From positions 1,316,501 through 1,380,500 of the forward strand of contig NZ_UHIO01000001.1 of assembly GCF_900460315.1 (NCBI RefSeq): 64,000 nt of DNA, read 5' to 3'. Of the stretch, positions 12,409-62,953 are shown piece after piece. Numbering within the stretch: the first letter of the stretch is position 1; the number at the start of each line of letters is the position of its first letter. The notes below the pieces were generated by a model. The model saw only the letters and a program-made list of their open reading frames with translations, was not told the origin of the DNA and searched no databases. The position numbers and the translations under genes are program-made. Origin of the DNA: Veillonella criceti. Lineage in GTDB: Bacteria > Bacillota > Negativicutes > Veillonellales > Veillonellaceae.

Positions 12409-12446
12409 AAAGCCCCCTCTACCGAACATTCGCTAGAGGGGGCTTT
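12409..12446. terminator. Bidirectional terminator between SLC13 gene and adhesin
   Basis: A perfect 13-bp GC-rich stem (AAAGCCCCCTCTA with TAGAGGGGGCTTT) is flanked by T-runs in both directions. It serves the rightward transporter gene and the leftward adhesin gene, whose stop is 52 bp away. Confidence 0.92.
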
Positions 12447-12498: not shown

Positions 12499-14628
12499 TT
12501 ATTTTTGAAGAATTGTTTGCATAGCGGCCTTTAATTCATTAATTTCAGATTGCTGTGCTTGTAAACGCGCTTCTTGATCTGCTAAGCGATTGCGAAGTTC
12601 TTTATTTTCTTCACGAATATTAACGCTTGCATTAGGCGCGCTACCAACGGCCCAAGAAATACCTGCATTGATCATAGTATCATTGTTACCGCTATAAGCT
12701 AAGCCTGCACTAACACGAATATCTTCATTAACACGATGAGCTACGCCAAGCGCGATAGCTGATTCACCTTTATAATAACCAAGACCCGCATTAATAGCTG
12801 TTTTTTTGTAATCTAAATCATACGTACCATTAAGAGCCGCTAAGGCAGCACCCATAGCACCTGTTTTTTCAATTTTAGTATTTAATTTTGATTCCACTCG
12901 ACCAATTTCATTATGAGCATTTTGAAGGCCTGTCGTTAAATCATTGTTTATATCGGTTTTTAAATCCTTTAATTGACTCACATTAACTGCATCAGTAGGC
13001 TGCTCACCAGGTGCTACATGACTAATTACTTTATCACCTGCATTGATACCCTTATCTGTAATCTGCACGCCACCATTTGTAATAATGCCATTTTTATTAA
13101 TCGTTGTATTGCCAGCTTTTACACTACCATCAGCGCCAAGATTAATATCTTTATTCAAGCCAAGCGTTACTTGTTTTGCCTTCCCATCATTAATCGGTTT
13201 GTTACTCACAGATAAATTACTATCAGCGATGAATGTAACATCTTGAGGCCCCATATTATTTTCAATCTTCTGTTCAAGTGCTTTTAACTGCGCCACATTG
13301 ACTGCATCTGTGGCATCATAACCGCCGGCTACATTGATGATGCGGCGGGTGTTAGCCGTAATTTCAGTAACATCATCTCCAGAACCTACTTCATATTTTA
13401 CATTACCTACTGAAACGACACCTTGCTCTTTACTAAATACTTCTTCTGATAAATAAGCTGCCTTGGCATAACTCTCTGACGGTGCTGCCAAAGAATCTTT
13501 TCCTAAAGCTACTGAATTATTCATCAGAGAAAGTGCATGTGAACCTACGGCCACAGAATTAGATACTCCTTCTAACCGAGTATAATCACCTATAGCTGTA
13601 TTATTTGTCCCTCTAACCCGTGAATAATACCCTAAAGCAGTAGACTCCTGACCATGTGTTTCAGCATAGTGACCAATTGCTACAGCATTATCAAAAGCTG
13701 TACGAGATTGTTGGCCAATAGCCACCGAGTAATTACCTTTAGCAATGGAAGATACACCTAAAGCAACCGTATTAGAATCAAGGGCTTCTGAGGCTGCCCC
13801 TAAGGCTATAGTCTGAAACCCGAATGCTTTTGCCTTGAAACCTATGGCCATAGAATTTTCTGTAGCATTAACTGCTTCTGGTGCTTTTGTATCATCTACC
13901 CCAATCGGATGATATTTACCGCCAATTGTATAATCTACTGTATAATCTTGATCACGTGGCGGTTCTTCTGCAATTGTATTAGTTGGATTTTGCTCATTAA
14001 TTTCACCAACATAAGCTTGACTCCCAATAGCAATACTATTTCGTGATGTTGTTTCTAAACCTGCCTGACTCCCAAGTGCTACGCTTTGTCCCGCCTTATT
14101 ATTAGTGAAAGTGCCAATTGCTACCGTATCATTACCATCAGCTGTAGCTTGAGCTCCAATTGCAACCCCTTGACTTCCGTTACCTTTTGAATATACCCCT
14201 ATTGCAATTGCATTAGCAGCCTCTAATTTAGTAGATGAACTATATCCTAAAGCAAGCGAAGCCTCTCCTAGTGCTTTTGCATTAAATCCAACAGCTGTTG
14301 CTCCTTGTTTTTGTGCCAATGCTGTATTCCCAATAGCAGTTGTTTCTTTTAACCTTGCATTACTTTCCTTACCAATAGCAGTACTATCTACTGCATTGGC
14401 AACAGCAGAATTTCCTAGTGCAGTAGAACCACGAGGAGTTGCCTTTGCATTATTGCCTACAGCAGTACTCGTTGCATCATATGTAATCGATGTTTCCCCG
14501 ACAGCTAATCCAGCCCCACTACCTTTTAATACGGGGTCTGCTGCCCACACGTTACTCCCAGTCAGCGCTACCACAACAGCCAATGCCAAACAAACTTTAG
14601 ATTGTTTTGAAATTACCTTCTTGCTCAT
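12499..14628 (-). CDS. Trimeric autotransporter adhesin (YadA-like), 709 aa
   Basis: Outer-membrane adhesin. Residues 1-29 form an ordinary Sec signal peptide (cleavage likely after ...GSNVWA) with no extended signal region. Residues about 40-400 are a YadA-like head of many 14-residue left-handed β-roll repeats (AIGxxAxAxG and SxAxG patterns). A neck with DAVNVAQLKALEQKI near 445, a short stalk with a second DAVNVSQLKDLK, and the C-terminal YadA anchor (about 590-661, from GAMGAALAALNGTY) follow. Unusually, about 48 residues of predicted coiled coil (ENKELRNRLADQEARL...) come after the last β-strand. Start ATG 14628 has GGAG eight bases upstream. An in-frame GTG at 14637 overlaps that site. 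A C7 run (G7 on the coding strand) lies about 140 bp upstream. Confidence 0.93.
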   Translation of the reverse strand: MSKKVISKQSKVCLALAVVVALTGSNVWAADPVLKGSGAGLAVGETSITYDATSTAVGNNAKATPRGSTALGNSAVANAVDSTAIGKESNARLKETTAIGNTALAQKQGATAVGFNAKALGEASLALGYSSSTKLEAANAIAIGVYSKGNGSQGVAIGAQATADGNDTVAIGTFTNNKAGQSVALGSQAGLETTSRNSIAIGSQAYVGEINEQNPTNTIAEEPPRDQDYTVDYTIGGKYHPIGVDDTKAPEAVNATENSMAIGFKAKAFGFQTIALGAASEALDSNTVALGVSSIAKGNYSVAIGQQSRTAFDNAVAIGHYAETHGQESTALGYYSRVRGTNNTAIGDYTRLEGVSNSVAVGSHALSLMNNSVALGKDSLAAPSESYAKAAYLSEEVFSKEQGVVSVGNVKYEVGSGDDVTEITANTRRIINVAGGYDATDAVNVAQLKALEQKIENNMGPQDVTFIADSNLSVSNKPINDGKAKQVTLGLNKDINLGADGSVKAGNTTINKNGIITNGGVQITDKGINAGDKVISHVAPGEQPTDAVNVSQLKDLKTDINNDLTTGLQNAHNEIGRVESKLNTKIEKTGAMGAALAALNGTYDLDYKKTAINAGLGYYKGESAIALGVAHRVNEDIRVSAGLAYSGNNDTMINAGISWAVGSAPNASVNIREENKELRNRLADQEARLQAQQSEINELKAAMQTILQK

Positions 14629-35434: not shown

Positions 35435-35944
35435 ATGATTATTCGACAAGAAAAGCCCTCTGACTATGAAACAGTCTATCAGCTTATCATTGAGGCTTTC
35501 AAAGAAGCAGAACACAGCGATGGTAACGAACAAAATTTAGTAGTTGCATTACGTCAAAGTCAATCCTTTGATCCTAAACTATCTTTAGTTGCTGAAATCA
35601 ACAATATAATTGTCGGCCATATTCTATTTACTAAAGTGCAAGTCGGGAAAAAAGTAGCGCTTGCCCTTGCGCCATTATCCATATTACCTGACTATCAAAA
35701 GCGAGGAATTGGCTTAGCCCTAATAAAAGAAGGCCATACGATTGCCAAACAACTGGGCTATACCTACATCATTGTCTTAGGCCATCCCCAATATTATCCC
35801 AAAGCAGGCTATCAACTTGCTAAAAACTATAATCTCAAAGCACCTTTCGAAATCCCAGACGAATACTTTATGGCTATTAAGCTTGATTCACAAGCAGAAC
35901 CTATAGAAGGAATTGTAACATACGATCCTGTATTCAATATTTAA
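35435..35944 (+). CDS. GNAT family N-acetyltransferase
   Basis: This 169-residue acetyltransferase opens MIIRQEKPSDYETVYQLI and has acetyl-CoA-binding motif A in LALAPLSILPDYQKRGIGLALIKEG (near 80-104, RGIGLALI), followed by YIIVLGHPQYYPKAGYQLA. The sequence YYPKAGY resembles the YhbS/COG3153 subfamily. The acceptor substrate is unknown. AAGGCGGTG precedes the ATG. It is convergent with guaA, separated by 402 bp that carry the hairpin repeats. Confidence 0.9.
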   Translation: MIIRQEKPSDYETVYQLIIEAFKEAEHSDGNEQNLVVALRQSQSFDPKLSLVAEINNIIVGHILFTKVQVGKKVALALAPLSILPDYQKRGIGLALIKEGHTIAKQLGYTYIIVLGHPQYYPKAGYQLAKNYNLKAPFEIPDEYFMAIKLDSQAEPIEGIVTYDPVFNI

Positions 35945-36027
35945 AATCAAAAACAATAATATATCCTCTATAGAAACATTCTTCTACACACTTAGTGCCA
36001 AAAGAAGACCTTACATCTTTCATAGTG

Positions 36028-36056
36028 ACCATTGTTGCGTAGCAACTCAGGGAGCC
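36028..36056. repeat. Hairpin-repeat core, copy 1 (29 bp)
   Basis: A 29-bp core starting GACCATTGTTGCG and ending CTCAGGGAGC. It is identical to copy 3. The left flank (ACATCTTTC, then TAGT) matches copy 2, but no matching right arm was found, so this copy looks like half an element. Confidence 0.85.
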
Positions 36057-36083
36057 ATTTTCCTCTCCCCTCTTACATACAGA

Positions 36084-36159
36084 AAAAAGGCAAGACATCT
36101 TTCGTAGTGACCATTGTTGCGTAGCAACGCAGGGAACGAGGAAGATGTATTGCCTTTTT
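36084..36159. terminator. Hairpin-repeat copy 2, terminator-like
   Basis: Outer arms AAAAAGGCAA/TTGCCTTTTT and ACATCTT/AAGATGT enclose the core at 36,109-36,137, which differs from copies 1 and 3 at two positions. T-runs on both strands make it a plausible bidirectional terminator with an unusually elaborate loop. Confidence 0.75.
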
Positions 36160-36233
36160 ATTCCTTCCCACTCTCCTTAAAGTAAAATGTCGATAGATTT
36201 TTCAATGTATGTTTTTATGATAAAAGTATGATA

Positions 36234-36307
36234 AAAAGCCTGTATGACTTCTGTCGCGACCATTGTTGCGTAGCAACTCAGGGAGCAAAGGAGTCATACA
36301 GGCTTTT
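36234..36307. terminator. Hairpin-repeat copy 3, terminator of guaA
   Basis: A perfect 16-bp outer stem (AAAAGCCTGTATGACT with its complement at 36,292-36,307) encloses the conserved core (36,258-36,286). Within the core, GTTGC-GTA-GCAAC forms an apical hairpin. T-runs lie on both sides. It lies 40 bp past the guaA stop. Confidence 0.8.
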
Positions 36308-36346
36308 ATTCATAAAATATACCGAAAATCTATCGACTTTTACTTT

Positions 36347-59704: not shown

Positions 59705-59751
59705 AAAACGCCTGTAAGCACTTTATACTCTATAGTGCTTACAGGCGTTTT
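59705..59751 (+). terminator. Terminator of the CycA-like gene
   Basis: A perfect 18-bp stem (AAAACGCCTGTAAGCACT with its complement) around an 11-nt loop, followed by T-rich sequence. It starts 14 bp past the stop. Confidence 0.93.
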
Positions 59752-59930
59752 TAGTTACGCTCTCTTCTCACTCAATATAAGGTCAATCCATCTTTATAAC
59801 AATAACTTGACTACCTTAAACCCCAACGTAACTCTCTCTTTTTCCCTCAATCTCCCTAGTCAATACCACTAACCCCTTGACTGGAATTTATTATACGTGC
59901 TTTTTTACTTCATGACTAATATATACAAAA

Positions 59931-59967
59931 AATGGTTAGTTATAGTCTAATCCTATAACTAACCATT
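59931..59967 (-). terminator. Terminator of the LysR gene
   Basis: A 15-bp stem (AATGGTTAGTTATAG/CTATAACTAACCATT) with a 7-nt loop. Read leftwards it is followed by TTTTTGTATATA. It lies about 28 bp after the LysR stop. Confidence 0.87.
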
Positions 59968-59994
59968 TTCATATTAATGTAGCTAATCAACCGA

Positions 59995-62486: not shown

Positions 62487-62890
62487 AATAATAAAAGTCT
62501 TTTTTTCAATATAAAAAGTCCAACAAAGCTAGACGCCGTCTAATTCGGCACCTGTTTTTCTGAACTGAATTCTCAAAGTAGGCATTAACACTACTTTTTT
62601 AGTTTTTTCATAGTCTATTTCTACCATTGGCGGACACAAAATTGTTACACGAATTGAATAATTCTTTATAAACCAACTATTTAAAACGAGGAGAACTCAT
62701 TTTATCCATAATAAGTTTTAATTTTAGTCTATTTTTTCCTATGCCAATTAGGTATTTTCAAGGCCTATTACGAAATAATTATGACTTTTTTCGAAGCAAC
62801 AGTGTCTATATCCACTCCAAAAGTACACAAAATTCAATGAATTTTATAAGAAATTTCTATTGGCTTATAATTTCACAGTTTGTTAACTAA
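62487..62890. other. Non-coding AT-rich region
   Basis: No supported gene. There is a small TAGACG/CGTCTA palindrome at about 62,531-62,543. The rest is AT-rich with no recognised element. Confidence 0.45.
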
Positions 62891-62897
62891 AAAAGAG

Positions 62898-62931
62898 AGA
62901 GTCATTGATTAATATATTCCTCAATGACTCT
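62898..62931 (-). terminator. Terminator of the argH-HD cluster
   Basis: An 11-bp stem (AGAGTCATTGA/TCAATGACTCT) with T-rich tracts on both strands. It lies 22 bp after the stop of the HD-domain gene. Confidence 0.88.
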
Positions 62932-62953
62932 TTCTTTTTATGCTAAACCGACC

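Follow-up and report, generated by a model that had tools for sequence, protein, structure and literature searches.

The window, the whole 64,000-nt stretch of Veillonella criceti DNA analysed here, contains three copies of a hairpin repeat between a GNAT acetyltransferase gene and guaA. Its features at this locus are listed below in window coordinates. P2 is the hairpin stem and P1 an outer helix; bit scores are those of R3, a covariance model described further on, and modules were delimited from the conserved columns of alignment A10.

35435 to 35944, plus strand: GNAT acetyltransferase gene (Pfam Acetyltransf_1), converging on the array
36000 to 36053, plus strand: copy 1, left arm and core, its right half lost with fic as read from alignment to genome G001
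36054 to 36067, plus strand: junction of the fic deletion, the gap between two alignment blocks
36084 to 36159, plus strand: copy 2, intact 76-nt hairpin (P2) with A-tract and T-tract ends and a type A stem (83.3 bits)
36104 to 36139, plus strand: conserved module of copy 2, GTA-GT-GA-CC ... GG-GA-AC-GA
36185 to 36201, plus strand: left arm of P1 around copy 3, AAATGTCGATAGATTTT (inverted-repeat score 14; null 99th percentile 10)
36233 to 36308, plus strand: copy 3, intact 76-nt hairpin (P2) with a type B stem, just 3' of guaA (83.1 bits)
36253 to 36288, plus strand: conserved module of copy 3, GTC-GC-GA-CC ... GG-GA-GC-AA
36325 to 36341, plus strand: right arm of P1 around copy 3, AAAATCTATCGACTTTT, ending 5 nt from the guaA stop codon
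36347 to 37894, minus strand: guaA, GMP synthase (Pfam GATase, GMP_synt_C), converging on the array and the closest gene to copy 3

The 26-nt core ACCATTGTTGCGTAGCAACNCAGGGA matches exactly at 36028, 36110 and 36259, its only three occurrences in the window, where shuffled sequence is expected to give none. The 13-nt centre of the core has three exact matches in the whole genome, all at the guaA-GNAT site. Counted as 29 nt from GACC, copy 1 matches copy 3 at every base and copy 2 departs from both at two (27 of 29), which bears out the three copies of a 29-nt core described in the initial annotation. The positions given there also place the three copies, except that the GACC of copy 1 begins at 36027, one base before the 36028 assigned to it. 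The outer stems of copies 2 and 3 had been described as different in sequence yet fully paired; they are unrelated in sequence, and the pairing is complete in copy 3, whereas in copy 2 it is broken by a G/A mismatch and includes a U-G pair. The window copies carry AAAAAG at the start and CTTTT(T) at the end. Relative to shuffled sequences, the fold z-scores are -7.0 for copy 2 and -8.8 for copy 3. Copy 1 was correctly seen as reduced to its left arm and core, and it folds no better than its shuffles (z -0.1).

The origin of copy 1 can be read from related genomes. In G001 and G006, a fic gene (Pfam Fic) lies at the guaA-GNAT site between intact hairpins of the same type. Window positions 35801-36053 align to G001 at 96%, and positions 36068-36162 align 745 bp further on; the 745-bp stretch of G001 that is absent from the window comprises fic and the right half of a hairpin. 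Copy 1 is therefore a deletion remnant, half of a fic-side hairpin. Tandem truncated left halves also lie beside full copies at the valS-side site of G003 (L073:1200-3050). These half copies comprise a P1 arm, a linker, and part of P2 with the core, which stands at the end and is followed by a pyrimidine-rich stretch, the same pattern as in copy 1. The unit containing copy 3 is present in the window and in G006 and absent from G001. It is flanked by a possible degenerate direct repeat, GAGTGGGAATA, and its junctions are not clean; they do not prove the unit to be an insertion relative to G001.

Near relatives carry differing accessory genes at the guaA-GNAT and fah-gnd sites, with copies of the hairpin on each side. 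The genes bounded in this way encode Fic, an AbiEi/AbiEii pair and a Schlafen AlbA_2 protein, and the stretches are L013:5758-6644, L014:5889-6922, L100:2630-5056 and L102:2254-4597. The window's own genome has no Fic, AbiEi/AbiEii or Schlafen AlbA_2 gene at either site.

Searching for the core and for a covariance model across Veillonella and other Negativicutes, the course favoured in the initial annotation, uncovers a dispersed family. Models were built from seven copies (R1) and from 27 (R2) and 70 (R3) forward-strand members; the first stage of the searches was filtered, so that all copy counts are lower bounds. One 76-nt design is found in 20 of 28 genomes of the taxonomic family, usually in at least 2 to 16 copies each. 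With the refined models, six of the seven genomes of the window's genus have at least 8 to 16 copies, and six genomes of genus g3 have no member, the weak g3 matches of R1 having disappeared. Thirteen of 14 genomes of genus g4, which is probably Veillonella in the narrow sense, have at least 2 to 16 copies per genome, and G007 has at least six. One genome in each carrier genus (G002 and G020) has no member at the search threshold, and these two are apparently viable without the family. Seven copies in the window's genome score above 50 bits, the two intact ones described here and five elsewhere, and a shortened variant near a queT-type gene scores 37 bits. R3 gives the window copies 83 bits on one strand and 28-30 on the other, whereas the scores of plain hairpins are about 20-30 bits and differ little between the strands.

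Beyond the taxonomic family, 250 genomes of the class yielded only three weak matches, all in one genus, with long stems and a core that is not the same. In genus g23 of this class, hairpins at L123, L130 and L133 have near-perfect stems of 22-23 bp, two of them topped by a GTA/GA-like 3x2 loop; they are possibly distant relatives or a case of convergence. An exact scan of species genomes for the core gave a match in Veillonella sp. R32 only. A fixed-sequence pattern for the diverged core proved too strict, with ten matches, some lacking a stem. In viral contigs, a loose core pattern matched 11 times, none scoring with R3 and the one inspected being no hairpin, and the genus g4 core had no match; plasmids gave no match. 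Rfam, at gathering and relaxed thresholds, has no family for the window elements or for 20 related loci. No Veillonella terminator or repeat family was found in the literature searched, which excludes most subscription journals, and within that literature the hairpin family appears to be undescribed.

Members share the consensus 5'-AAAAg-(20-bp stem P2)-GNA-GC-GA-CY-(W)UU-inner hairpin-(R)GG-GA-GC-RA-(P2')-cUUUU-3'. From the outside in, the design thus has an A-tract and a T-tract at the two ends of a 20-bp stem, then a 3x2 internal loop (GNA/RA), a second internal loop (GA/GA) and finally an inner hairpin. The A-tract and T-tract columns are conserved across 69 members. So is the module, with counts out of 69, in order, of G 56, N, A 59, G 64, C 58, G 61, A 63 and C 63 on the 5' side, and G 56, A 57, G 59, C 61, R and A 61 on the 3' side; its columns keep 81-93% identity between loci with completely diverged stems. 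The tandem G-A pairs that the initial annotation proposed between GACC and GGGA fit the two internal loops conserved across the family. The sequence of P2 itself varies, and its pairs are almost all Watson-Crick. At one site, three near relatives have unrelated stems around a persisting core; at another, several stem pairs have changed on both sides; and in close relatives a given site can have stems that differ, with every change compensated, while the core is the same. Copies at one site are clear duplicates of each other.

All 30 modelled pairs covary, with a score of 0.843 against 0.098-0.178 when partners are slid by one to three columns and 0 of 500 shuffles reaching it, and 95% of cells are paired against 40-48% in the slid controls; this evidence is somewhat overstated, since the alignment was fitted to the model and many of its rows are orthologues. 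Together with the conserved tip, the covariation supports the earlier suggestion that selection acts on a shape. Wobble pairs differ along the stem. Outer pairs 2-16 contain 14 G-U and 11 A-C in 1028 cells and so have no strand preference, as if both strands mattered or the arms were copied from each other. The loop-proximal pairs 17-20 contain 30 U-G against 1 C-A (p 3e-8), so it is on the plus strand that the module folds.

No open reading frame of 100 aa or more contains any of the 81 mapped copies. Flanking genes are convergent in 40 of 81 cases, compared with 16 of 98 baseline pairs (Fisher p 2e-6), codirectional in 39 and divergent in two, although these counts are not independent, many mapped copies being orthologues and the reading frames having been called mechanically. 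The nearest gene points toward the element in 66 of 80 cases; relative to that gene, the strand carrying the module is antisense in 56 of the 66 and sense in 10. The module is therefore not simply part of that gene's 3'UTR. The neighbouring genes are functionally mixed.

The window also holds four plain A/T-tract hairpins with near-perfect stems of 16-20 bp (12409-12446, 59705-59751, 59929-59969 and 62890-62939), three of them between convergent genes. They are likely ordinary bidirectional terminators of the lineage, which P2 accordingly resembles. The features that the family shares with bidirectional intrinsic terminators are a stable GC-containing stem, A-tract and T-tract ends and a position mostly between convergent genes; the tip module with its 3x2 and GA/GA loops, and the helix P1, set it apart from the plain ones.

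P1 is formed by the flanks of the 76-nt hairpin, which can pair over 12-20 bp in 46 of the 81 mapped copies (score 11 or more, a value that about 1% of mismatched flank pairs reach). The gaps to the hairpin are mostly 16-33 nt on the left and 14-31 nt on the right. No P1 was found around 14 plain long-stem hairpins of the same genomes (p 4e-5). In the window, P1 encloses copy 3. In about eleven cases, the right arm overlaps the final codons of the gene next to it. At L101 (hairpin at 13132), the two arms, 13091-13112 and 13224-13245, each fall within the 3' end of a coding sequence; the two sequences converge, and their ends therefore share a nearly identical 22-nt stretch. In genus g4 (for example L095-L097), the base of P1, ATGGGAC ... 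GGGGCCCCAT, is conserved around many hairpins, and P1 there is more conserved in sequence than in the window's genus. A pyrimidine tract is modestly enriched ahead of P1, with CTCC in 12 of 46 left flanks against 2-4 on the right.

We favour, with roughly even confidence, the explanation that these repeats are lineage-specific bidirectional terminator stems that carry a conserved, strand-specific module and whose arms are kept complementary. On this explanation, the repeats would be copies of a vertically persisting intergenic element. P2, with its A-tract and T-tract sides, would act as an intrinsic terminator in both directions, mostly between convergent genes. The module, 5' GNAGCGAC ... 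GGAGCRA 3' with its 3x2 and GA/GA loops, folds on the plus strand at the tip of P2 and would most likely be bound by a protein, and P1 often joins the end of the adjacent gene to sequence on the other side of the hairpin. Arms that drift and yet stay complementary would reflect selection and probably also template switching between arms during replication, a mechanism already described for paired changes of this kind (PMC8794818), which would also yield duplicated and half copies. The initial annotation was thus largely right in proposing a Veillonella terminator family, as far as the lineage, the terminator-like stems, the conserved tip and the covariation of the stems are concerned, with termination in both directions predicted from sequence; it had missed P1, the strand specificity of the module, the position at gene 3' ends and the fic scar.

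If this explanation is correct, a structured module that is absent from RNA databases is shared by many gene ends in a genus common in the mouth and gut, and it offers a definite starting point in the search for its reading factor. The family would also be well suited to studying how long hairpin stems turn over in sequence and stay paired, with wobbles that are symmetric in the arms and asymmetric by the loop, and with complete stem turnover at orthologous sites.

Against the favoured explanation stand the two genomes that lack the family, G002 and G020, and a conflict between the helices: an efficient terminator at P2 would keep P1 from forming in ordinary transcripts, and P1 would then belong to DNA or to read-through RNA. 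Together with the antisense orientation of the module, this conflict keeps alive an explanation at the level of DNA, in which the plus strand folds as single-stranded DNA and is a substrate for a recombinase, transposase or repair enzyme, as REP or attC sequences are, with termination as a by-product. We consider this unlikely, but it is the alternative we take most seriously. It would account for nested P1 and P2 arms without an excess of G-U over A-C, for a strand-specific module and for P1 arms that reach coding 3' ends, at L101 those of both convergent genes. The fic, AbiEi/AbiEii and Schlafen AlbA_2 genes between copies at the guaA and gnd sites and the tandem half copies are suggestive in the same direction. 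However, the sites are conserved between species, the arms differ between loci in a way that recent transposition would not produce, and no clean empty site with a target duplication was shown. Moreover, the Y1/RAYT-type transposase domain PF01797 is absent from G000, G001, G003, G004 and G006, five of the six carriers in the window's genus, and has one match in G005; genus g4 has it often, in many near-identical copies that resemble IS200.

The same absence counts against the earlier idea of a REP-like element mobilised by a transposase. REP elements fall into GTAG and CGTC superfamilies with RAYT transposases, and are defined as short palindromes with stems of 5-13 bp, a GTAG or CGTC end tag and a sequence conserved within the genome; the survey that describes them names no Veillonella, Negativicutes or Firmicutes (PMC3733652). 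Our family shares with them intergenic palindromes at gene 3' ends, clusters and inverted pairs, and a GNAG before an imperfect inner hairpin, but here the inner hairpin sits inside a 20-bp stem of non-conserved sequence. We rejected a REP/RAYT identity because most carriers in the window's genus lack the transposase; stems are also unrelated between loci, and the core occurs three times in the genome. MITE-type repeats such as bcr1 of Bacillus cereus and Correia/NEMIS are likewise about 100-200 bp, intergenic, hairpin-forming and present in tens of copies or fewer per genome, but they conserve their terminal repeats in sequence; in our family the P1 and P2 arms vary at every locus and pairing alone is kept. 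Integron attC sites are strand-specific, imperfect folded hairpins that can flank accessory genes, as ours can. In attC, however, the outer R'' and R' boxes are conserved, whereas the outer arms of this family are variable.

A new class of nested DNA/RNA element is a speculative and rather improbable proposal, in which the module on a two-way terminator would be clasped by a helix reaching into the last codons and read by a dedicated factor, so that gene ends in this lineage would share a recognised tag; the tag would also mark sites at which accessory genes (toxin-antitoxin and defence) are exchanged.

Alternatively, the hairpins could be regulated terminators or antiterminators whose module senses a protein or ligand, with read-through RNA forming P1 and coupling convergent or neighbouring genes. 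Terminator stems seldom have a conserved tip, and known precedents are ligand-sensing terminators, the HMP-PP and guanidine-IV riboswitches among them (PMC8632094); P1 could form only in read-through RNA. Those riboswitches lie in leaders before the gene that they regulate, whereas these hairpins lie 3' of functionally mixed genes, mostly antisense to the nearest one and rarely in a leader position (the two divergent cases). This position does not match a tip-conserved terminator riboswitch, whose place is upstream of one gene class, and we regard regulated termination as decidedly unlikely.

It is more doubtful still that these are ordinary long-stem terminators with tips related by an old duplication, a functionless module and arms kept paired by template switching alone. 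Plain long-stem terminators do exist alongside, and the copies at one site clearly derive from each other, but neither the identity of the module columns despite diverged stems, nor the U-G over C-A asymmetry by the loop, nor the restriction of P1 to module-bearing copies would be expected. A simple local duplication without a wider family, to which the initial annotation would have turned had the core occurred nowhere else in the genome, is refuted: the literal core is indeed confined to its three positions, but covariance models place diverged members of the design at further sites in this genome and also in relatives.

Two further structured RNAs in the window, both on the minus strand, are ordinary: a TPP riboswitch (Rfam RF00059, 40361-40462) ahead of a thiC-like gene, and a T-box leader (Rfam RF00230, 52264-52464).
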